NCBI GenBank assembly: GCA_902728285.1
Contig: CACVBU010000538.1
Coordinates: 709,141 to 773,140, forward strand
DNA from: Clytia hemisphaerica
Lineage: Eukaryota > Cnidaria > Hydrozoa > Leptothecata > Clytiidae
Direction: 5' to 3'
DNA: 64,000 nucleotides
Shown: in pieces, positions 17,540 to 62,240 of the stretch
Layout: every line of letters starts with the position of its first letter
Numbering within the stretch: the first letter of the stretch is position 1
Notes under the pieces: generated by a model
What the model was told of the DNA's origin: nothing
What the model saw: the letters and a program-made list of their open reading frames with translations, nothing else
The model's database searches: none
Program-made: the position numbers and the translations under genes

Positions 17540-18045
17540 TTTGAATTGTACAATTCAAAGGTGTTTCAAAAAAGGTTCAATTACAATTCAACAAACAATC
17601 CATTTACATTTCACGAATATTTCAAAAGCAATTCGTGAACTGTTTTTGGATTGTCTTGTTTGGATTGTTTTTGAATTACAATGTTCAAGAAAGTTTTAAA
17701 AATTCAAATGCATTTCAAAAGTACATTTCAAAAGCAATTCGTGAACTGTTTTTGGATTGTCTTGTTTGGATTGTTTTTGAATTACAATGTTCAAGAAAGT
17801 TTTAAAAATTCAAATGCATTTCAAAAGTACACTTCAAAAGCAATTCGTGAATTGTTTTTGGATTGTGTTGTTTGAATTGTTTTTGAATTGCAATGTTAAA
17901 GAAAATTTTAAAAATTCAAATGCATTTCAACAGTGCACTTCAAAAGCACTTCGTGAATTGTTTTTGGATTTTCTCGTTTGGATTGTTTTTGAATTTTAAT
18001 GTTCGAGAAATTTTAAAAATTCAAATGCATTTCAAAAGCAATACA
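17540..18045. repeat. Tandem array of about 106-bp units
   Basis: About four units repeat AATTCGTGAACTGTTTTTGG, ATTGTTTTTGAATTACAATG and AAAAATTCAAATGCATTTCA. Unit starts fall near 17630, 17736, 17842 and 17948. The repeat creates two short ORFs (from 17681 and 17787) that are by-products. A related ATTTGAATTG-rich array lies at 39285-39740. Confidence 0.75.
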
Positions 18046-23436: not shown

Positions 23437-23581
23437 CAGTCGAGTACTATTGCAAATTAGGAGAAATGCGGGTATTTCGCTTAAATAGGATGAATTATCC
23501 TAAATAAGATAAAATCGATAGCTTAGTTAGGAGAAATAGAAGAAAAAGTTGATTTTCTGAACAAATTCAGAGATCCGCGTC
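23437..23581 (+). repeat. Left 145-bp terminal inverted repeat
   Basis: Contains TTAGGAGAAAT twice (near 23457 and 23526) and an ATAGGATGAATTATCCTAAAT partial palindrome. These are likely transposase-binding sites (inference). Similar words recur just inside, near 23675-23715. Confidence 0.9.
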
Positions 23582-23855
23582 TTTATTACTCTCTAAATCA
23601 ATTGTGCTCATACAGAAGATCATTTTAAACCAAAAGTTAGCTTCTTATCAGCGCGGAGTGAAAAAATATAAGCATTTATCCTATTTTGGATAAAATGTAC
23701 TAAATAAGAGAAATAGTATTTTTGTTTACTTTCTTTCCCGTAATAAAAAAGATGAAGAATTAAAAAGGTTTGAGTGGACGAAAAGTGTCGAAAGCGTTCA
23801 ATCGTGTCTGTTACAATTACTGTTTAATACATCTTAATTTCTATATCTTCAAAAC

Positions 23856-24365
23856 ATGAGTCAAGTTTTTACTAAAAGAATTAGATGTTTAACATCTGAA
23901 GTGTTTCAAGAAGCCGATTTGGAAGATATTGTTCAGCACAACCGATTCAGGTTCGACAATAATCTCCGTAAAAAGCCCTTTTTAGGGTTTTATTCTACAG
24001 TCAATGGGTATCATCGCTTTCACGTGAGACCCTACTCATGCAGGATGACTTGTATGAGAGAACCAGAAAACAATTATGACCCAAAGGCGATCAAAATCCT
24101 GAAAGAAGATGGTACATGTGTTGGAAGGATGCCAGCGACATGCTGCCGCATTGTATCCAAGTACATCGATCTTGGCCATATAATCAAAACCAGTGTTTAC
24201 TGGAAAAATGATAAATGGCAACATGGACCCTCCATTGATTTTGGTGATGGCCCTAAACTCGTTTCTTTTTATGCTTTCGAGTTCGAATCCGTCCAGAAGA
24301 GAAACGAACTCGCAGAAGAACTGATGAATAAATTAATTGCCGTTGAAGAAGCTCGCGTCCCTTGA
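23856..24365 (+). CDS. Stand-alone HIRAN-domain protein, 169 aa
   Basis: A single open frame with start context AAAACATGA, 274 bp inside the left terminal repeat. Residues 41-110 form a HIRAN domain (PF08797): FLGFYSTVNGYHRFHVRPY, then the hallmark REPENNYDPKAIKIL, then DGTCVGRMPATCCRIVSKYI. In HLTF/Rad5 proteins HIRAN binds 3'-OH single-stranded DNA ends. The rest is short: an N-terminal region with HNRFRFDNNLRKK and a charged C-terminal helix. No helicase or RING part is attached, so it probably acts as a free DNA-end-binding accessory of the transposon (inference). An AATAAA poly(A) signal lies at 24449-24454. Confidence 0.85.
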   Translation: MSQVFTKRIRCLTSEVFQEADLEDIVQHNRFRFDNNLRKKPFLGFYSTVNGYHRFHVRPYSCRMTCMREPENNYDPKAIKILKEDGTCVGRMPATCCRIVSKYIDLGHIIKTSVYWKNDKWQHGPSIDFGDGPKLVSFYAFEFESVQKRNELAEELMNKLIAVEEARVP

Positions 24366-24516
24366 ACAGTTTAGCGTACTTTGATTATTTTAGGAGAATC
24401 CATGTAAAAATTTATCTCCATCTAGTATGCAATGTATAGTCTGCGAGTAATAAACAATTTTTTCTTGACTACAAGATTTCTCTTAGTCCTATTTTTTTTC
24501 TACATCTCCAGCTGAA

Positions 24517-24723
24517 ACTTTGCTCGTTTGGAGGACAGGATATGACTTTTCTCGGACTATTTGCAAGCGTTTTACAGTGTACCCTTTCGAATTCGAATTC
24601 TCATCAACAGAATATCCATTTTTTTTTCGAATTACAAAGACTGATATTAAGAAGTTCGAATCAGGGAGAGTGAGAGAGGAGCAATTCTTTACAAAAAAGA
24701 AGTATAAAATATCAGTTACTTAA
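24517..24723 (+). CDS. Possible small ORF or exon of the transposon
   Basis: Open from a CTCCAG acceptor-like site to TAA at 24721-24723, encoding YPFEFEFSSTEYPFFFRITK and SGRVREEQFFTKKKYK. The composition looks protein-like (aromatic and charged residues alternate) but no family is recognised and the start is unclear. It may be an exon joined to the next ORF. Confidence 0.3.
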   Translation, partial: TLLVWRTGYDFSRTICKRFTVYPFEFEFSSTEYPFFFRITKTDIKKFESGRVREEQFFTKKKYKISVT

Positions 24724-24775
24724 TTTTAACTTCTCTTCTACAGAAAAAAGTAAAAAAAAACAACATAGAAATAGA

Positions 24776-25000
24776 ATGGAACAAGAAACATTAGAAGAAA
24801 TCGAAGAAACACCTTTTGTTTATGATGAAAATCTCAAAAAGTATCCAATTCGCGACTCTAATAAGAAACACTCTTCGAAAGAAGAAACCCTGGCCAATGG
24901 TAAAAAAACAAGAAGAAGGGCTGAAGGATATATAACAAATCCGTCTAAGCGATCAGATGCCAGACATAAAAGGAAAAACGGTATTGATTTGTTTATGTAA
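24776..25000 (+). CDS. Small charged protein of the transposon, 74 aa
   Basis: ATG at 24776, TAA at 24998-25000. The acidic N-terminus (MEQETLEEIEETPFVYDE) is followed by a very basic C-terminus (KKTRRRAEGYITNPSKRSDA, RHKRKNG). It lies between the HIRAN gene and the repeat-protein gene, same strand. The basic tail could bind nucleic acid (inference). Not recognised. A GTATTG donor near the end leaves open that it splices to a later exon. Confidence 0.45.
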   Translation: MEQETLEEIEETPFVYDENLKKYPIRDSNKKHSSKEETLANGKKTRRRAEGYITNPSKRSDARHKRKNGIDLFM

Positions 25001-25009
25001 TACAATTTT

Positions 25010-25490
25010 TCATTTATTTACTCCGTTCTCCATAAACAAATTGACAATTGCCTATATACTGTATGAATCTAGCGACAATAGAACTTAAAATAGTTTTTAA
25101 AATGATAAAATATCCTGAGGTGGGTACTAGGGCAAAATGTAAGTATATTGTGGTACACATTTTTTTTTAATAAACAACCGAGTTGCTGAGGGCTCAGGCC
25201 TCAAAATTGCCCAAAAAATAAGCAACTTGCTTAGCAATCCTGAGGCCTCAAATTCAAATTAGTAACTTTTTTCCTCAGCAATGAAAAATATCTTTGACAC
25301 AACTTTAAAAGAAAGCGTTGAAAATCTTTGAAAAATACCTCTACTGCCCATTCAAAATTGAAGAATTGTTGAAAAATGCAAAACTGTGCTTTTCAACCAT
25401 TTTAAGCTTGAAAATTTTTAAGCAACCTTACAAGCAACTTTGGGCCTGGACTTCGAAAAATCCTTAGCAAATCTAGGCCTGACCCGAAAA
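25010..25490. other. Non-coding gap within the transposon
   Basis: Contains paired phrases GGGCTCAGGCCTCAAAATTG (about 25190) and ATCCTGAGGCCTCAAATT (about 25240) with GTTGCTGAGG/CCTCAGCAAT around them, a small repeat of unknown meaning. No coding seen. Confidence 0.4.
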
Positions 25491-26801
25491 ATGGAGTTAC
25501 TTATAAAAAAAAGTGTAGATCTTGATAGTTCTAGAAGTATAAAACAGCAAGATTTTATCTATTTTTTCTTAGGACTTCTTCTCTCAGCGTATCAATATAC
25601 GTTGGTCACTGGTGGGAGAGTGTATATTGAATTTGAATACGAAGATGGCAGGAAAAAAAGCAAAGTTACAGAAAGATACAGCTCATCATTGGGTATGATG
25701 CACGATAAGAGAATGAAAGAAACCAATGAACAACTTCAGTCTTCCTCATCTACCATCACGTCACCAAGGTCACTTGGCTCGCCTATGTCTCTGGGCTCTC
25801 CACTTTTTCTAGGTTCATCTCCTGAATCGACAGATCTACTTGACTTTTGTTCTCAAGTTACACCAGTACACGGAGAACAACCTACCCAAACAAGTACACC
25901 AAAGTCCATATTCGTTCAAACAAATGCATCAAATCCGATCGTTCGAACAAATGCACCAACGTCAACCATACAAACAAATACACCAAAGTCCATAATCGTT
26001 CAAACAAATGCATCAAATCCGATCGTTCGAACAAATGCACCAACGTCAACCATACAAACAAATACACCAAAGTCCATAATCGTTCGAACAAATGCACCAA
26101 ATCCGATCGTTCGAACAAATGCACCAACGTCAACCATACAAACAAATACACCAAAGTCCATAATCGTTCTAACAAATGCACCAAATCCGATCGTTCGAGC
26201 AAATTCATCAAAAGTAAACTCAATTGTTCAAGAAAAATCGACCATTCAAGCAAATTCATTAAAAACAAATTCGATCATTCAAGCAAATTCATTAAAAGCA
26301 AATTCGATCATTCAAGCAAATTCATTAAAAGCAAATTCGATCATTCAAGCAAATTCATTAAAAGCAAATTCGATCGTTCAAGCAAGCTCATTAAAAGCAA
26401 ATTCAATCGTTCAGGTCCAGGCAAACTCACCGATCGTTCAGAGTAATACATTTAAACCGTATTCATTAATCGCACAAACAAATTCATTCGTACCCACGTC
26501 AATTGTTCAAACAAACGCACAAAAAACTATCAAAATAGTTGCAACACATGGAGCAAAACCTGTACAACAGTTAGGTCAAAATCAAAAGAATCCCAAGGTT
26601 ATAATACTAGGACAAACACAACAAGAAAGAAAAGCACCTCTGCCTTTTACGAACCATGGTAGTTATTCGTTAAAACCAACGATCACTGATAAATTGTTAA
26701 AAGATATTTCGCCATCAGCCAAACTTTTTCCTGTTAAAAGGGGAGGTGAGCCAAAATTAAGAGGACCATCAGGACTGCAAAGAAAAAAAGCAAAGAAATA
26801 G
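25491..26801 (+). CDS. Repeat-rich Ser/Thr/Asn/Gln protein of the transposon, 436 aa
   Basis: The ATG at 25491 is preferred over an in-frame TTG at 25440. Residues 1-70 look globular (VDLDSSRSIKQQDFIYFFLG and GGRVYIEFEYEDGRKKSKV). A Ser-rich linker follows, then about four 28-residue units of the type TNTPKSIIVQTNASNPIVRT + NAPTSTIQ (84-nt period, 25890-26200), then about seven 11-residue units of the type ANSLKANSIIQ (33-nt period, 26200-26420). The C-terminus is basic and ends QRKKAKK, a nuclear-localisation-like tail. The repeats force long ORFs in two other frames, which are shadows. No family recognised. The low-complexity centre may be disordered. Confidence 0.65.
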   Translation: MELLIKKSVDLDSSRSIKQQDFIYFFLGLLLSAYQYTLVTGGRVYIEFEYEDGRKKSKVTERYSSSLGMMHDKRMKETNEQLQSSSSTITSPRSLGSPMSLGSPLFLGSSPESTDLLDFCSQVTPVHGEQPTQTSTPKSIFVQTNASNPIVRTNAPTSTIQTNTPKSIIVQTNASNPIVRTNAPTSTIQTNTPKSIIVRTNAPNPIVRTNAPTSTIQTNTPKSIIVLTNAPNPIVRANSSKVNSIVQEKSTIQANSLKTNSIIQANSLKANSIIQANSLKANSIIQANSLKANSIVQASSLKANSIVQVQANSPIVQSNTFKPYSLIAQTNSFVPTSIVQTNAQKTIKIVATHGAKPVQQLGQNQKNPKVIILGQTQQERKAPLPFTNHGSYSLKPTITDKLLKDISPSAKLFPVKRGGEPKLRGPSGLQRKKAKK

Positions 26802-27198
26802 ACTCTGTATATGTACGACTATCATTGTGTTTACAAAACATTTTTCATACCTGAAGCTGAAAAACTTAACTATAACGTAATTATTCTTTAGTTTAAATTT
26901 CTTTTGATATTTAACAGTTACACATGTAGGAAACATGACCTATATACATGACCATATACTATACAAAAATCTCAGTTGTTTCTAATCAAAATTTGACTAC
27001 AATTTCATACGTAAGAAGAAATTTATGGTGTAAATGAATGAAAATATTTCTAATGTCCCTAAAGGAAGATAGATCTTCTGGCCTAAGGATCACTTCTGAT
27101 CCTGATGAAAAATTCTTGATTTTGTACACAATTATTTTCCAATGCAAAAATGTTAGTTTTCAAAAATTTTCGTAGTTTCTACACTTAAATTTTTTTTT

Positions 27199-27253
27199 AA
27201 AGAGTGAAAAGATTCATATATATTTATATTATATATGAATCTTTTCACTCTTT
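27199..27253. repeat. Perfect hairpin 1 between the converging transposon genes
   Basis: The 24-bp arms AAAGAGTGAAAAGATTCATA + TATA and their exact complement at 27230-27253 enclose a 7-nt loop. It lies 400 bp after the repeat-protein stop and 590 bp before the end of the opposite gene. Confidence 0.85.
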
Positions 27254-27284
27254 TAGAGAAACTTTACAGAAAATGGATTGGTCA

Positions 27285-27352
27285 AAAATTGGAGGTTTTC
27301 TCAGGACTATGAATCAAAGACCCTTCATAGTCCTGAGAAAACCTCCAATTTT
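27285..27352. repeat. Perfect hairpin 2 between the converging transposon genes
   Basis: The 29-bp arms (27285-27313 AAAATTGGAGGTTTTCTCAG + GACTATGAA; exact complement 27324-27352) enclose a 10-nt loop. The size fits a short miRNA-precursor-like stem or a foldback; nothing shows which. Confidence 0.85.
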
Positions 27353-27844
27353 ATTTTTTTTAAATTTTGCTACAATAAAAAACTATCTATTATAATGATT
27401 AGGTTTAGAGGAGCTTAAAAATATTTTGAGGGTTTTTCCTGAAATTATAAACAGTGCATTCACCTCACAAAGGATAAGTAAAGTTTTAGAGGGTTTACAG
27501 TTCCCCAACCTCCCCCTCTCACTCCCCCAAAAAACTGAATATTTTCTCACATTTTCTCACACAAAATTTACCATTTTCCCAAATTTTAATATTTATCTTA
27601 TATTTTATCTTTATATTTTCATATTTATCAAAATGTATATAGATTTTACATTAGATTAATTATATCCAGTCAACTGTGGCCCTGGAAAATATAGTTTATC
27701 ATTCTTTTTCAAAAAAATTCTTCCTTATTGTTACTTCCATCAGAACCAAGAAAATGAAAATTTTGATAATTCTAATAAATTTTAATTTCATCAAAAGTCA
27801 AACTGATAAAATTTGAAAGCATTAGTGGGCTTTGATTTTCAGTA

Positions 27845-30800
27845 TCACTCACTAGGAAAAATCTTGATCAAGTCATATTTAATTGACTCAAAAGAAGTTC
27901 CATTCATATAAGTTCTCCAATATTCTTTGCGTTTTGATTTAAGATTTGATGTGAGATTTACTAAGTCATCACTCAAAATATCACCATAAATGTTGTACAC
28001 AGTATCTTTACTTGTATATTCAAGAAATTGAGACTGTCTTAAAATGGCTCTCCATTCATTAATTTCGTCGCTTAACAGTACAACTCTTGGGTAAGTATCA
28101 GTTTCCAAATGTAACAATTTGGACGCATTGGAATAGATGCTATCTAGAGTATCGACTGATCTAGATATACGTTGCCAGGTAGATTTGTTAACAATACCTT
28201 TCGGAGCCATTAACTTTTGCCGTTGGACTTTTTGCTCCAGCATGAAATCCCCACCCTGGTTTCTGCTATTTACATTGTGAGAAGAGAATGTCAAATTTTC
28301 TCTTGTTTGCTGCTCTACTTCTTCAGGCATTGTAGATTTCATTAACAAATCTCTATATTCAATTTCACGATAATAAGGATGATTAAAGCCATAAAACCAA
28401 TCATTGAAGGCATACCTTCCAGCATTGCTAACATTGGCATCGTTATTGCGGTCACCCACTCGTTGAATGTATACCCCAAGCGCAAAGTCCAACAAATGAA
28501 ATATAAACTTTAGTGTAGCGGAAGATTGTTCTGACTGCCAATGAACAAATCCTGCAGGAGACAATTCTTCCATGTCTTTTCTATCGGCATACAAACGAAT
28601 AAGCTCAAGTACTGTACCATGCAAAAAAATTTCAAATGTTTCCCAAGCTCTATGAGTGTCACTACAGCTAATGAACGACGAGTAAGCTAATGTTGAATTG
28701 AAGTTGAGTACGTCCTGACCAAGTGGTTCGAAGCATACTTTATCCATGATCTAAAAGTTTAAAATATATAGAAAAACTCATTAGACTTTCTTAAAAATTG
28801 CATTAAAAAACAAAAAAAAATAAAATACATAACTCCAAGGTTAATTTATGAAATAATATATAGTTGAAGGGGTCAAGGATACCAACCCAAGGCTTGAAAA
28901 CCTAACTTATTTTTGAAATTTGAAAGTAGTAGACTCCAGCAACCACTCATTTAGGTATCAAAATCAACTTCAAAAGATTCCCTTACTTTTTGAAAAAGGG
29001 GACCTAGTTCCTCATTTTGGTATGGATAGCAACTGGACACTTGACTTTTTGAAATTTGAAGAAAATACTAACACAACTGTCGACCCCCTGTGTGGATGGA
29101 TTAAAACATAGCTTTGAGCTGCTTTGAAGCTGGTAAATAACTTTTTTAAGAAGCTCTTTAAATACACGCTTTTTTTATAAGAATACCTTCTATAAGAATA
29201 TCAGGGTGAAAATTGGCCAAATCGTAAGAATACTTCCAGGGTGAGTTTCACATATTTTGATAAGAATATAGTCATTTTCTATTTGGTAAGAAAAATAACT
29301 GGGTTTTTTGTTCGACTTAAATTGAGACTTAAAGGTAGAAATGTAATTTTGGCTTCAAATGTGCGCTAGATAGCAAGAAACTCTCAAATAGGTCATTTCT
29401 TGTACTTGTATAAAGGTCAAGTCTGAGAAAGTAAGAGTAAATCAAGAATATTTTACCCTCAATCCCGGCAATTTCTTAAGAATACTTGAGCCTTAGCCAA
29501 AGTACACTTTTCTTATAAAAATTATTCAGCACAAAACAAATTGGCAAAGTAAGCTTCAGTTTAGTTTGTATCTGTGTGTCTGATAGCGGACACAAAAGGC
29601 AATAAGGAAAATTAGAGAGAAAAAATCACCTTGAAGAATCCTTTCATTTGATTCATATTAAGATGCCCAAGGCCAGGTTGCATGGCAACCCAATCATATT
29701 TCTCTTTGTTTTGATCAATCAATCTGTTGGCCAAGCAGTACGGTGGACCATCACATCCAATAAATGTCCATTGCCTCTGATGACCAATTCCCAGGTTAAT
29801 CTTCAGCTGATCCAATATATGTTTCAGATTTTCATAGGAGTTAGGGTTAAGTAGAATTGGCTCTCCAACCATCTGGGGACACACATTTATATGTTTGGTT
29901 TCACCAATAAAGAGATATTTTTCGCCATCTGAAGAGCTTTGGACAGTCCTTTCCTCTTTTTTCTTTTCTTTCCTCTTTACGTCGGCACCGCAAGTGTCAC
30001 AAACACGTTTTCTTGGTCCATATTCTGTCATGCATGTCTAAAATTTTAAAATAAAATGAAATACAAAAAAGTTATGTGATGAGTGAACCTAAGTGGCTGT
30101 TGTAAATATCTCAACAAAATATTTCAAGAATATTACTTTTAGAAAAATTTGCAACATTTTGTTCTGGATTTAAAAATAGGATACTGGTGTCTAATTTTCC
30201 CTTGTAAAAATAAGCTTATTATAAAGAGGTTAAAGTAAACACCCTTCAGCCCTTAACACAGTAAATTTTGTAACCCACTTTACCCAACAAAACAAGTGAT
30301 ATAAGGTATTTATAAAAATAAATTTAATTTTTACCTGATTCGTACATATTCGAGTTTTAACAGACATCAACTCTTCTATTCTAGAAGTTATTTTGTCATC
30401 TTCTTGTTTGAAAAGATGTATCATTTGAAACAAATAGTTGTAGCGGCATCTACGGAAGATTATTCTGGAATTTTGTATGAAGGTTTCCATCTTTTCTTGT
30501 TTTTGTTCCACTGTTAAACCTGCACCCCAGACAATAGGCTTCAAGCTTGCGTCAGTTTGGAGTGAATGAATGGTCCGGAGTATGATGTGTAGAGTGGTTG
30601 TGATGACATCTGCTGCTCCTACTTTATCTTTTGAAACTCTATAATTTTTAATGATATATTTTCCAATATTATCAATGAATGTTATTATGTCCCCAAGAGG
30701 ACATTCTAACGGAGCACTTCCAATTTCATTCAACCAAGTCAAAAATGTTGTATATCCACCTCCAGGAGTCAACTTCCCATTGAGCACACTGACTACTTTT

Positions 30801-31456
30801 GATCCGGAGATGAAGGATTGAACCACGTTTGATACAAAATGATAGGGAAAAATCCACTTTACATTACAAAAAGAGTAGATAGCTTCAATAGTCATGATTA
30901 GCTGATATTGTAATTGCGAATCCAAACTCGAAATATTTCTGTTAGACAGCCCTTCAAGAAAAGAGACCAGAAAGGTATCGTAGTGTTCAACATCGTTTTT
31001 TGGAAGTATTGATTGAAGATAGTTCACATTTGTGTACTTTTGGGATAGGCTTTCTCCAGTTTGTTGAATCCGTGGATTTAACACAATCTTCCCCAATGTT
31101 CTGAAACATTTTTTCCAAATTGATTCCTCAACAGTGTCAATATCCTTGGAAAATTCTGTTAGGGCTGAATTGAATGATGTAACAGCACTACTAAGCGATT
31201 TTGGTTCAGGGAGCCTGTCACTAGGTGAAATAATACGTTTTGTCTTTGCAATACATGCCTGACATAGAAACTTTTCTCTTTCACCAAGAAAAAGGTGGTC
31301 TCTGAGGAACTCGACAACTTCCACGTATACTTTTGACCGTACAATGTGCAGGACACTTTCATCTGGTGTAAAATCCTTCCAAATCTCGTGGAATGAGCAG
31401 CAACAATAAAATTTACTTTTCTTCGCCTCCTCATTCACTGATTGTTCATCCGCCAT
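27845..31456 (-). CDS. DUF6589-like putative transposase of the transposon, 811 aa, three exons
   Basis: Exons in transcript order: 31456-30335 (374 codons), 30037-29630 (136), 28750-27845 (301 plus TGA). All junctions are phase 0 with GT-AG. The start ATG is 220 bp inside the right terminal repeat. The N-terminus has a Cys-rich cluster (FYCCCSFHEIW ... EKFLCQACIAKTKR); exon 2 has another CxxC (VCDTCGADVKRKEKK), then VCPQMVGEPILLNP, WTFIGCDGPPYCLANRLID (Asp at about residue 470) and DWVAMQPGLGHLNMNQMKGF. Conserved 'D-G-[LP]-P' and 'QPGLGH' motifs are typical of the large transposon-associated metazoan/fungal family I associate with DUF6589 (from memory, unchecked). Exon 3 has HWQSEQSSATLKFIFHLLDF and ends FPSE. 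A DDE-type fold is an inference from context. The TGA overlaps a GTGAGT donor-like sequence, so a further exon is possible. Confidence 0.65.
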
Positions 31457-31675
31457 GTTGAAAATTTCAATTTTGTATTTCCGTGAAAGTTTATGCCGAG
31501 TCAGCAGAATTTCGGAATCAATTTCGCTTAGCTCAGCGGAATTCCAAGTATTTTTCTGAACTACGCATGCGTACTACTTAAAAGTTGAATAACTTCTGAA
31601 CGCACGCTGACTGGTGGATCAGACTTCACAAGCATACTATGCTGGCTCCAAATTTCTTAAATTTATGCAAAACTT

Positions 31676-31820
31676 GACGCGGATCTCTGAATTTGTTCAG
31701 AAAATCAACTTTTTCTTCTATTTCTCCTAACTAAGCTATCGATTTTATCTTATTTAGGATAATTCATCCTATTTAAGCGAAATACCCGCATTTCTCCTAA
31801 TTTGCAATAGTACTCGACTG
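31676..31820 (-). repeat. Right 145-bp terminal inverted repeat
   Basis: The exact reverse complement of 23437-23581, ending TACTCGACTG before the GTAAA duplication. Confidence 0.9.
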
Positions 31821-32691: not shown

Positions 32692-34985
32692 TTAGTCACA
32701 TAAAAGAATGTTACCAGAGTAATATCCACGCCTTTTCTCCAAGTTCGTGTAAATTTTTTCTTGAGGCGGTGTGTAATAATTTTGCTTTGCTCCTATAAAT
32801 AAAAAAAAGACTTAGGACATCTGGTTGAATTCAAAATTGGTATATTACTTGACTGATTTCAAACAAATTCTTTAACACACCCCGCTACTACATATTAAGT
32901 GTGATTAAGTGTTACATACGTACCCATTGGTGCATTTAGTGTTTTTGAAGACACTTGGTCCTGTTGAGTATGAACCTGACTTGGTTGATTTTGCGTTTCT
33001 AAAATAAATTAAAGAAACACAAATGAAGTGAGAGTTTGTGGTAATTAAATTTGTTTGCTTAAAAGAAACCATTGCATTGACATCAAAGGAAGGGATCCAA
33101 TTAACTTTTGAGAACAAAACATGTGTCGACAAGGATTAAATGGTTAGCTACGTACGAATTGGTATAATAGGTGTTCTTGAAAACACTTGGTCATGTTGCG
33201 TATCAATCTGATTTGGTTGATTTTGCGTTTCTAAAAATAAATTAAATGAACACAAAAGAAGTGAGAGTTTGAAGTATTCAGTTTCATTTGCGTTAAATAC
33301 CGTTGCATTGACATCCAAGGAAGAGATCAACTTGACTTTCAAGAACAAAACATGCGTCGATAAGAATTAAATTGTTAGATACGTACGAATTGGTGTAGTT
33401 AGTGTTCTTGAAGACACTTGGTCCTGTTGAGTATCAGGTTGATTTGGTTGATTTTGCGTTTCTAAAAATAAATTAAATGAACACAAATGAAGTGAGAGTT
33501 TCAAGTATTCAGCTTCGTTTGCTTTAAAGAAATCGTTGCATTGACATCGAAAGAAAAGATCAACTTGACTGTCAACAAGGATTAAAGTGTTAGATACGTA
33601 CGAATTGGTGTAATTAGTGTTCTTGAAGACGCTTGTTGAGTATCAACCTGATTTGGTTGATTTTGTATTTCTAAAAAAAAATTAAATGAACACAAATGAA
33701 GTGAGAGTTTGTGGTATTAAAATTGTTTGCTTTTAAAAGGAAACATTGCATTGACATTAAAGGAATAAGGGATTAAGTTATTAAAATGACTTTTGAGAGC
33801 AAATATGTGTCGACAAGGATTAAAGTCTTAGATACGTACGAATTGGTGTTCTTGAAGACACTTGGTCATGTTGCGTATCAATCTGATTTGGTTGACTTTG
33901 CGTTTCTAAAATAAATTAAATGAACACAAATGAAGTGAGAGTTTGAAGTATTCAGTTTCATTTGCGTTAAATACCGTTGCATTGACATCCAAGGAAGAGA
34001 TCAACTTGACTTTCAAGAACAAAACATGCGTCGATAAGAATTAAATTGTTAGATACGTACGAATTGGTGTAGTTAGTGTTCTTGAAGACACTTGGTCCTG
34101 TTGAGTATCAGGTTGATTTGGTTGATTTTGCGTTTCTAAAAATAAATTAAATGAACACAAATGAAGTGAGAGTTTCCAGTATTCAGCTTTGTTTGCTTCA
34201 AAGAAATCGTTGCATTGATATCCAAGGAAGAGATCAACTTGACTTTTGAGAACAAAACATGTGTCGACAAGAATTAAAGTGTTAGATACGTACGAATTGG
34301 TGTAGTTAGTGTTCTTGAAGACAGTTGGTCATGTTGCGTATGAACCTGACTTGGTTGATTTTGCGTTTCTAAAATAAATTAAATGAACACAAATGAAGTG
34401 TTAAAGTATGTGGTAATTAAATTTGTTTGCTTAAAAGAAACCATTACATTGACATTAAAGGAAGGGATCCAATTAACTTTTGAGAACAAAACTTGTATCG
34501 ACAAGGATTACATGGTTAGCTACGTACCAATTGGGGTAGTTAGTGTTCTTGAAGACACTTGGTCATGTTGCGTATCAATCTGATTTGGTTGATTTTGCGT
34601 TTCTAAAAATAAATTAAATGAACACAAATGAAGTGAGAGTTTCGAGTATTCAGTTTCGTTTGCCTTAAATACCGTTGCATTGACATCAAAGGAAGATATC
34701 AACTTGACTGTCAACAAGGATTAAAGTGTTAGATACGTACGAATTGGTGTAGTTAGTGTTCTTGAAGACACTTGGTCCTGTTGAGTATCAGGTTGATTTT
34801 GCGTTTCTAAAATAAATTAAATGAACACAAATCAAGTGAGAGTTTGTGGTATTAAATTTGTTTGCTTAAAAGAAAGAAAACATTGCATTAACATCAAGAG
34901 AAGAGATCAACTTGACTTTCAAGAACAAAACTTACGCGGTGAGTTGTTCTGGTTAAGAAGATGCCAAATAGATTGATGAGGTGTA
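32692..34985 (-). CDS. Gene section with nine tandem mini-exons encoding a 25-aa Q/T-rich repeat
   Basis: In transcript order: 34985-34936 (50 nt, peptide TPHQSIWHLLNQNNSP), then the repeated exons 34806-34741 (66 nt), 34602-34528 (75), 34368-34294 (75), 34135-34061 (75), 33905-33840 (66), 33670-33602 (69), 33461-33387 (75), 33230-33156 (75), 32998-32924 (75), then a final exon 32792-32692 ending in TAA (peptide KQNYYTPPQEKIYTN...). Every repeated exon has an acceptor TAG|AA and a donor C|GTACGT (G|GTACGT in the last) and is phase 1-1, so any subset can be joined in frame. The unit reads QTQNQPNQPDTQQDQVSSRT + LTTPI. Introns are 138-169 nt. Length changes between copies are multiples of three (66, 69, 75), indicating selection for frame. 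No family recognised. Exons further upstream were not found. Confidence 0.7.
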
Positions 34986-57879: not shown

Positions 57880-57983
57880 TTACCCAGCTGGCACACAACG
57901 TTGTTTCAATGTTCAAATAACGTTCTTAACGTTCATTTAACGTTATTTGAACGTTGAAACAACGTTGTGTGCCAGCTGGGTAA
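57880..57983. mobile_element. 104-bp palindromic foldback element, copy 1
   Basis: TTACCCAGCTGGCACACAAC + GTTGTTTCAATGTTCAAATA + ACGTT is followed after a short centre by its near-exact complement. The whole element is almost one palindrome, rich in AACGTT. Confidence 0.85.
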
Positions 57984-58585: not shown

Positions 58586-59300
58586 GTTAAAGAATTCTTA
58601 CAATTTATTGCATTTTTCATTCAAGAAATTCTTATAAAAACTAGTCTTACAGGAAAGAGTGTGTCTTTTACAAAGGCTTGGCTTTTAATTAATTCGGCTT
58701 TTTAATTTGATTGCGTCAGCCTTTACCTTTACATAGGGTCATGGTCGGGGTCGAGATGTTATCGATTGCTGATGTTAGGTTTTATCTTAAATTTCATTCT
58801 TTTATTCTCACAACAATGATCTTATAGTTAAAATGTTTCCAAGTTCTATGACAACGATAACAAAATAGTGTATAAGGAAAAATGTGGGATTCCCCTATCG
58901 ATACGGTTTGTTTTATCGAATTCGAAATTTGATATCTGTCATCGGCGCTTTTTGGACGCCTTATTTCATGATTAGACATGTTCCTTTCAACTTATTGTGG
59001 ATGTTAAAAAACTTTATATCAAATCATGTGAATATCATAAAAGCACTATACTAATCTACAGAGGCGTACATGGTCACAACTTTTTAGAGTAAGATCAATG
59101 AATCAATAACATTAACACACTTTTTAAAATTATCTTTGAAAAAAATTAACACAGAAATGTACAGGCATGGTTATACCAATTATACGAGTATATCTAAGGT
59201 TTCAGAACATTAAATAATAAAGACGAGTTCATTTGTCAAGCTTCAAACTAAGGTAAGCCATTTGATTTCTTTTGCTTTAACGGACAGCCAGTGACGCATC

Positions 59301-59396
59301 CTAGCTGGCACACAACGTTTTTTCGACGTTTATCTAACGTTCACAACGTCCATATAACGCTAGATGAACGTTAAAACAACGTTGTGTGCCGGCTGA
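59301..59396. mobile_element. Palindromic foldback element, copy 2
   Basis: AGCTGGCACACAACGTTTTT ... AACAACGTTGTGTGCCGGCT. Same ends and AACGTT-rich body as 57880-57983 but diverged in the middle. Confidence 0.8.
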
Positions 59397-59749: not shown

Positions 59750-62240
59750 ATTAAGTATCTCACCTAACTTACCCCTGTATCACTGAAAAGGGCTAAATTT
59801 ATTCAATTTCAAGGAATTTATTTAGTAACCAAAACTAATAAATTTTACTGCTCATCTAACTTAACTCACCTCTGTATCAATGACAGAGATAAGTTTTATT
59901 CAAATTTAATGAATATTTTCTTTGATTAACATGTCTCATTAATTTGAATGTTTATCACACTTAACTCACCTCTGTATCAATGGAAGAGAGTAAATTTATT
60001 AAATTTTTAGGAATGTTTTCTTTAATCAACATGTCTCGTTAATTTAAATGTGTATCTCACTTAACTTACCCCTGTTTCACTGAAAGAGATTCGTTTTATT
60101 CAAATTTTAATTAATATTTTCTTTGATTAACACGTCTTATTAATTTGAATGTGTATCTCACTTAACTTACCCCTGTATCACTGAAAGAGATTAGTTTCAT
60201 TCAAATTTTAATGAATATTTTCTTTGACTAACACGTCTAATCAATTTGAATGTGTATCTCACTTAACTCACCCCTGTATCACTGAAAGAGAATAGTTTTA
60301 TTCAAATTTTAATTAATATTTTCTTTGATTATCACCTCTAATTAATTTGAATGTGTATCTCACTTAACTCACCCCTGTATCACTAAAAGAGAATAGTTTT
60401 ATTCAAATTTTAATTAATATTTTCTTTGATTAACACGTCTAATTAATTTGAATGTGTGTCTCACTTGACCTACCCCTGTTTCACTTAAAGTCATCAAGGA
60501 GATTAGTTTCATTTAAATTTTAATGAATATTTTCTTTGACTAACACGTCTAATTAATTTGAATGTGTATCTCACTTAACTCACCCCTGTAGCACTGAAAG
60601 AGAATAGTTTTATTCAAATTTTAATTAATATTTTCTTTGACTAACACGTCTCATTAATTTGAATGTGTGTCTCACTTGACCTACCCCTGTTTCACTTAAA
60701 GTCATCAAAGAGATTAGTTTCATTCAAATTTAAGGATTCTTTTCTTTGATTAACACATCTCATTAATTTGAATGTGTCTCTCACTTAACTTATCCCTGTA
60801 TCACTAAAGGAGATAAGTCTTATTCAAATTTTAATTAATATTTTCTTTGATTAACACGTCTCGTTAATTTGAATGTGTATTTCACTTAACTTACCCCTGT
60901 TTCACCGAAAGAGAATAGTTTCATTCAAATTTAAGGAATATTTTCTTTGATTAACTTGTCTCATTAATTTAAATGTGTATCTCGCTAAACTTACCTCTGT
61001 ATCACTGAAAGAGATTAGTTTCATTCAAATTTAAAGAATATTTTCTTTGATTAACTTGTCTCATTAATTTAAATATGTATCTCACTTAAGTTACCCCTGT
61101 TTCACTGAAATAGATTAGTTTCATTCAAATTTAAAGAATATTTTCTTTGATTAACATGTCTCGTTAATTTAAATGTGTATCTCACTTAACTTACCCCTGT
61201 ATCACTAAAAGAGAATAGTTTCATTCAAATTTTAATGAACATTTTCTTTGATTAACACGTCTAATTAATTTGAATGTGTATCACACTTAACTCACCTCTG
61301 TATCACTGAAAGAGATTAGTTTCACTTAATTCTGATGAATATTTTCTTTGATTAACATGTCTCATTAATTTGAATGTGTCTTTTATTTAACACACCTTTG
61401 TATCATTGAAAGAGAGTAAATTTATTAGACTTTAAGGAATATTTTCTTTGATTAACATGTCTCGTTAATTTAAATGTGTATCTCACTTAACTTACCCTTG
61501 TATCACTAAAAGAGAATAGTTTTATTCAAATTTTAATGAACATTTTCTTTGACTAACACGTCTAATTAATTTGAATGTGTATCTCACTTAACTCACCCCT
61601 GTAGCACTGAAAGAGAATAGTTTTATTCAAATTTTAACTAATATTTTCTTTAATTAACATGTCTCGTTAATTTGAATGTGTATCTCACTTAACTTACCCC
61701 TGTATCACTGAAAGAGATTAGTTTTATTCAAATCTAATGAATCTTTTCTTTGATTAACACGTCTCATCAATTTAAATGTGTATCTCACTTAACTTACCCC
61801 TGTATCACTGAAAGAGATTAGTTTTATTCAAATTTAATGAATATTTTCTTTGATTAACACATCTCATTAATTTAAATGTGTATCTCACTTAACTCACCTC
61901 TTTATCCCTAATCCCTGAAAGAGATAAGTTTTATTCAAATTTTAATGAATATTTTCTTTTGATTATTACTTCTCATTAATTTGAATGTTTATAACACTTC
62001 TCAACTCTGTATCTTGTTCTATTTTGAAATTTGTTTTCTTTTGGTCATCACCTCCAATCTATTTGTCTATCTCATTTATCTTACTCCTGTATCACTATGT
62101 ATTATGGCATATTTTTCTTGATTGACACATCCAATTAAATTCTGTATTTCACTTAACTTACCTCTGTATCACTGAAAGAGAGTAAATTCATTTAATTTTA
62201 AGAAATATATTTCCTTATTAACACGACCAATTAATTCAAC
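59750..62240. repeat. Satellite array, about 101-bp monomer, about 24 copies
   Basis: Each monomer contains CTGTATCACTGAAAGAGATT, TTTTATTCAAATTTTAATGA, ATATTTTCTTTGATTAACAC, GTCTCATTAATTTGAATGTG and TATCTCACTTAACTTACCCC. Monomers differ by a few substitutions; some form two-monomer patterns (for example TTTCACTTAAAGTCATCAA at 60480 and 60689). Both edges decay. No spacer variation of a CRISPR kind and no coding frame. Confidence 0.9.

Follow-up and report, generated by a model that had tools for sequence, protein, structure and literature searches.

A recently amplified DNA transposon lineage of Clytia hemisphaerica with HIRAN and MADS-like accessory genes in four families

What kind of mobile element carries a free-standing HIRAN gene between perfect inverted repeats, and what might such a protein do there? 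The question is raised by positions 23,437 to 31,820 of a 64,000-nucleotide stretch of the Clytia hemisphaerica genome (the window; assembly GCA_902728285.1, contig CACVBU010000538.1, positions 709,141 to 773,140 of the forward strand). We find that the element belongs to a recently amplified DNA transposon lineage and that a HIRAN and MADS-like accessory pair is common to four families, here called A (the window's element), B (L040), C (L037) and D (L041 and L042). Taken as a whole, the observations are best explained, with a probability of about 0.62, by a cut-and-paste transposon lineage with CAGTC...GACTG ends, a 5-bp TTNAA-like target-site duplication (TSD) and three inward-facing genes with the roles proposed below.

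The two terminal inverted repeats (TIRs), which an initial annotation of this DNA had read as alike at all bases, are 100% identical over exactly 145 bp when compared directly, and the GTAAA duplication that it had placed around the element is present on both sides (Table 1). In the 417-Mb assembly (951 contigs), a search with the 145-bp TIR gave 40 scored matches among 141 candidates, 25 of which, the window's own two counted, are 100% identical over all 145 bp. Both ends are paired and face inward at 24 of the 28 loci around the other matches (L009 to L036), a single end being found at L022, L023, L025 and L028; these two proportions are the reason why we do not regard the pairing as a product of chance. 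The same terminal bases recur in these copies, so that their ends coincide with those of the window's element, as had been expected of them. An exact 5-bp TSD flanks 26 of 29 elements (the window's, the 24 paired loci, L037, L040, L041 and L042), the exceptions being an eroded end in L031, a 4-nt match in L034 and one mismatch in L036, and the TSD consensus over the elements examined is symmetric and TTNAA-like.

Element lengths at L009 to L036 lie between 680 and 9125 bp. A second near-full family-A copy, matching in two blocks (98.6 and 95.6%), is found at L009, L012 is a 3.7-kb deletion derivative, and the remaining paired family-A loci, of 680 to 1554 bp, keep mainly terminal parts; both ends are retained in deletion derivatives spanning 680 to 3690 bp, and the genes are disrupted in the other long family-A copies, L009 and L022. 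Some of the short family-A derivatives (L024, L026, L027, L029, L030, L032 to L035) have unequal ends, one with CAGTCGAG and the opposite one with CAGTCAGG. Joined flanks of L011 match uninterrupted sequence in L019 (96%) and L025 (93%), those of L030 match L029 (85%), and those of the family-B element L040 match L030 (90%); these sites are paralogous, not allelic, and some of their duplication bases differ from those of the occupied copies. The comparison drew on 9 query-subject pairs picked from spanning matches among the fetched loci, and L010, L016, L034 and L036, with indels, a palindrome or tandem repeats, were left out of the clean uninterrupted sites. TIRs, a TSD of fixed length, dispersed copies that end at the same bases, and uninterrupted (paralogous) sites characterize the element as a class II cut-and-paste transposon, and identical TIR copies, paired ends, TSDs and uninterrupted sites bear out the original description of a large, recently active DNA transposon with a 5-bp duplication.

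Table 1. Features of the family-A element, in positions of the window.
Feature	Position	Strand	Basis
Left 5-bp TSD, GTAAA	23432..23436		end comparison with right flank
Left 145-bp TIR, begins CAGTCGAGTAC	23437..23581	+	same end in other copies
HIRAN protein, 169 amino acids (aa), single exon	23856..24365	+	Pfam HIRAN match
MADS-like gene, probable exon 1 (earlier "small basic protein")	24776..24980	+	inferred splice; homologous single open reading frames (ORFs) in L037, L040, L041
MADS-like gene, probable exon 2 (earlier "repeat protein")	25573..26801	+	inferred splice; MADS similarity
Two hairpin-forming inverted repeats between converging genes	27186..27352		inverted-repeat analysis
Putative transposase, exon 3: candidate catalytic E, QGGDFxLEQ	27845..28750	-	gene model and alignment
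Putative transposase, exon 2: zinc ribbon, GCDGPP, PGLGHLNMNQ	29630..30037	-	gene model and alignment
Putative transposase, exon 1: N-terminal C-x-C..H..C-x2-C, FIDNIGKY	30335..31456	-	gene model and alignment
Right 145-bp TIR	31676..31820	-	inverted match to left repeat
Right 5-bp TSD, GTAAA	31821..31825		matches left GTAAA

The HIRAN ORF is intact and scores 36.6 bits against the Pfam HIRAN model (PF08797, cut-off 24.7), a cut-off exceeded in families A, B, C and D alike. The protein has a HIRAN fold, the structure nearest to its predicted model being the HIRAN domain of HLTF, but it is only 16% identical to HLTF and, unlike the HIRAN of HLTF and Rad5, is free-standing, with no other Pfam match in family A. 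HIRAN proteins of the other families are 31 to 58% identical to the window's, and N72 and D75, which lie in a motif that we take as the candidate DNA site, are invariant in five aligned HIRAN proteins; at what is presumably the position of HLTF Y93, the five rows read Y, Y, I, F and F. HIRAN favours 3' ends, and the element's protein may handle cut DNA ends.

The initial annotation had counted four intact inward-facing genes. While the HIRAN ORF is indeed intact and the three-exon 811-residue gene is open, the small basic and repeat ORFs are probably two exons of one gene, which would leave three genes instead of four, because a putative GT-AG intron at 24981-25572 would join them and unite both halves of a MADS-like motif (KRKNGLLLSAYQYTLVTGGRVYIEFEYEDGR) in one predicted 477-aa protein. 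The junction 24980/25573 gives the best rebuild of the motif among frame-keeping junctions, of which there are alternatives, and has a polypyrimidine acceptor; in L037, L040 and L041 (families C, B and D) both halves lie within a single ORF. Tandem repeats of 84 and 33 bp occupy 25887-26413 in exon 2. Searched against PDB, a MADS-like profile of the four families matches SRF (E=6e-4) and MCM1 (E=0.006) and no others at E<0.01. A PHD-type finger terminates the protein in B, C and D, over the zf-HC5HC2H cut-off in B and below the PHD cut-off in C and D. The family-D protein has 24 genome matches (56 of 56 candidates scored), and those beside transposase or HIRAN loci include places on C715, C737, C898, C341, C635, C558, C899, C928, C794 and C327 (HIRAN only).

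The 811-aa protein is the putative transposase. Its gene has phase-0 GT-AG introns as we placed them, with those of B and C placed at the same positions, and D262, D470 and E682 are conserved in the aligned transposase candidates. The likeness to DUF6589 (PF20231) claimed for it from the start survives in part: weak colinear similarity is seen in all four families (A 17.6, B 23.9, C 12.8 and D exon 3 13.1 bits; A 462-574 aligns to profile positions 104-224, B 643-723 to 325-407 and C 488-566 to 129-211), but every score lies below the cut-off of 27 bits, whereas a canonical DUF6589 protein of Clytia, L047, scores 152.7.

Families B, C and D agree with the window's element in their outermost bases, in the length of the TSD and in the order of the genes, have TIRs, and encode the transposase on the strand opposite to HIRAN and the MADS-like gene. 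The family-B element is 7915 bp long, with a 112-bp inverted repeat, the duplication GACAA and a transposase gene that stops about 30 residues early; that of family C is 6744 bp, with the duplication TTGGT; and the two of family D, L041 and L042, are 8199 and 7374 bp, with the duplications TCTGG and TCCCT and a transposase in at least as many pieces as the window's three exons (partial model). L041 appears by eye to be inserted in a reverse-transcriptase-like ORF (L041:673-1618 and the right flank). A further transposase lineage has a single exon (L038, 852 aa; L039, 871 aa), and no TIR was seen for either locus within 6 kb. L048, a 4.35-kb stretch that starts 1.9 kb past L039, holds a PHD-type ORF matched by the family-D MADS-like protein search; HIRAN was not seen in it by eye, and C794 is in neither HIRAN match list (HIRAN query, Pfam model). 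An inverted repeat of 48 nt, between L039:2-49 and L048:1216-1263, surrounds the single-exon transposase and the PHD-type ORF and may or may not represent element ends.

Does HIRAN accompany this transposase beyond the elements read directly? A single HIRAN query, which may miss distant HIRANs, gave 78 genome matches (99 of 99 candidates scored) that merge within 2 kb into 71 loci, and transposase matches merge within 5 kb into 45 loci; the count takes in all HIRAN-query matches, all matches of the main transposase search and 8 picked from a second. Fourteen of the 71 HIRAN loci lie at most 12 kb from a transposase locus, where 0.18 would be expected by chance, and 15 of the 45 transposase loci have HIRAN within that distance. 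The 14 are not independent, since several are copies of one family, and transposase loci are undercounted, since 56 of 283 candidates were scored in the main search and 53 of 276 in the second. The adjacency of the HIRAN and 811-residue genes that was anticipated for relatives is found both in the four families and at these 14 loci; among the other 57 HIRAN loci, some are short family-A derivatives, and the partner of others may be among the unscored transposase candidates. HIRAN is undetected within 12 kb of 30 of the 45 detected transposase loci, many of them fragments, as might be expected of a neutral passenger captured once. We consider such a passenger very unlikely, because HIRAN has been kept across families at the identities given above with Pfam scores over the cut-off, and its ratio of non-synonymous to synonymous substitution rates (dN/dS) among A copies is 0.13 to 0.50, from 3 to 6 changes per pair.

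Comparison of the window with L009, L012, L022 and L023 gives 34 synonymous and 39 non-synonymous differences and a summed dN/dS of 0.30, the window being a partner in every family-A pair, so that the pairs are not independent. Among these pairs the values for single exons lie between 0.08 and 1.26, and those for copy pairs of C and B between 0.27 and 0.99, with one exon at 4 non-synonymous against 0 synonymous changes. These values suggest constraint between jumps.

Several results weigh against the reading proposed here. The 30 transposase loci just mentioned and the single-exon lineage, with which HIRAN was not seen in the sequence examined, mean that HIRAN may be dispensable. The SRF-TF model (PF00319, cut-off 26 bits) is not reached in B (16 for the whole protein, 19.4 for a fragment) or A (13) and has no match for C and D in the Pfam search; it is because this domain stays below its cut-off, while the profile matches SRF and MCM1 in PDB, that we go no further than the name MADS-like. 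For the MADS-like gene of the window, the Pfam search gives no match to PHD. Enrichment of CArG sites, the MADS target, at the element ends is unproven: with the strict pattern and 400 bp per end, C has 3 sites (shuffle mean 0.05), A has 1, and B and both copies of D have 0, while of two relaxed patterns C and D exceed the shuffles in both, A in one and B in neither, the shuffles having preserved single-base composition only. The sole AlphaFold2 model of the transposase, from an 11-row alignment of ORFs and exons, is poor (mean confidence, pLDDT, 47.6) and does not show an RNase-H core. None of the families' transposases reaches the DUF6589 cut-off, L038 and L039 do not match the model up to an E of 1, and hhalign found no meaningful alignment between L047 and the transposase profile (Prob 0.1, E 0.61).

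To which group of transposons, then, might the lineage belong? hAT ends start with CAG, as do those of the Clytia element. For hAT5, 5-bp duplications are described (PMC12730594); the 811-aa protein, however, has no listed Pfam match to the hAT dimerisation domain at E up to 10. The same paper gives the CMCT clade CA...TG ends and 2-5 bp duplications, which the Clytia element shares. The RAG1-RAG2 transposons Transib/TransibSU resemble the Clytia element in their 5-bp duplications and in encoding a second protein, but TransibSU has TIRs of 13 bp against 145 bp here (PMC4411706), and RAG2 stands where the Clytia element has HIRAN and MADS-like genes. Among the listed matches of the transposase profile to PDB sequences up to E 10 there is no Transib/RAG1 sequence. 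Fungal DNA transposons with TET/JBP genes likewise carry a captured DNA-acting accessory gene, although it differs from HIRAN and MADS-like genes and their transposases belong to other named groups (PMC12730594).

Such capture, documented there in several DNA transposon superfamilies, would suit an alternative in which the element is a member of a superfamily already in Repbase or Dfam (for example, Academ, or an unnamed DUF6589-type group), with HIRAN and MADS/PHD as the accessory genes of one branch. This alternative also draws on the single-exon relatives without detected HIRAN and on 105 above-cut-off DUF6589 matches in the Clytia genome (102 of 356 candidates scored), which lie at places other than the transposase loci. 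We nevertheless find it somewhat unlikely, as DUF6589, below its cut-off, is the sole Pfam transposase model listed for the 811-aa protein at E up to 10 (HMMER filters drop many weak matches) and DUF6589 is not mentioned in the open-licence PubMed Central (PMC) literature searched. In the titles and abstracts listed from that literature we recognized no description of the HIRAN, MADS-like and transposase gene set, and the texts found there to mention HIRAN together with transposon terms are a virus survey, a type VI secretion system effector study and a fungal genome study. A new superfamily is possible, and we tentatively entertain, at somewhat less than even odds, a eukaryotic cut-and-paste superfamily with two non-catalytic transpososome subunits, in which HIRAN would grip 3' ends and a MADS/PHD dimer on subterminal sites would steer the element to chromatin.

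In the mechanism that we propose for the cut-and-paste lineage, the 811-aa protein, in which D262, D470 and E682 are conserved and which is perhaps distantly related to DUF6589 proteins, would act as the transposase: it would bring the two ends together, cut them and join them again with a stagger of 5 bp. The MADS-like protein, which in B, C and D has a PHD-type finger, may be a dimeric DNA- and chromatin-binding accessory that binds subterminal repeats or picks targets. The HIRAN protein may hold or protect the ends once they are exposed, or branched intermediates of strand transfer, until these are joined or repaired. Proteins of chromatin and transcription typically contain PHD fingers and MADS domains, which would suit a role of the accessory pair outside transposition, in transcription control or in countering host silencing or repair. 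HIRAN is undetected near many transposase loci, and transposon-encoded TET/JBP proteins have been proposed to counter silencing (PMC12730594). We think such a role unlikely, since N72 and D75 are invariant, as expected for DNA binding, and HIRAN is kept beside the transposase in all four families, although neither point separates transposition from repair.

Other matches and repeats were met along the way. The Pfam HIRAN model has 47 matches in the Clytia genome (69 of 69 scored) and matches 1 of 14 control genomes. In viral contigs, none of 161 pattern stretches was confirmed. The best genome HIRAN match (C547:110562-110795, E 2.8e-20) is possibly a host HLTF/Rad5-type gene. C256:1650662, C256:1782474 and C832:1478580 all score 45.3 bits with that model; the scored lists place no transposase match near them, and they perhaps belong to another HIRAN-bearing repeat family. 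DUF6589 matches on C472, C860, C168 and others include several intact 600-aa frames in equal-scoring pairs and are perhaps other mobile elements. The window also contains tandem arrays at 59755-61999 (101-bp units), 32907-34931 (231-bp) and 17621-18038 (106-bp), and a near-perfect palindrome at 57880-57983 with 45-nt arms 14 nt apart, which resembles a miniature inverted-repeat transposable element and has similar stretches at 59300-59395, in L019 and in L028.

To our knowledge, few eukaryotic transposons encode a repair-type DNA-binding protein of their own. If HIRAN acts on the ends of this element, the protection and routing of transposon ends after excision would become testable, and the small free HIRAN would offer itself for comparison with HLTF and Rad5. 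If the link to DUF6589 holds, the large uncharacterized DUF6589 group would gain a concrete transposon context.

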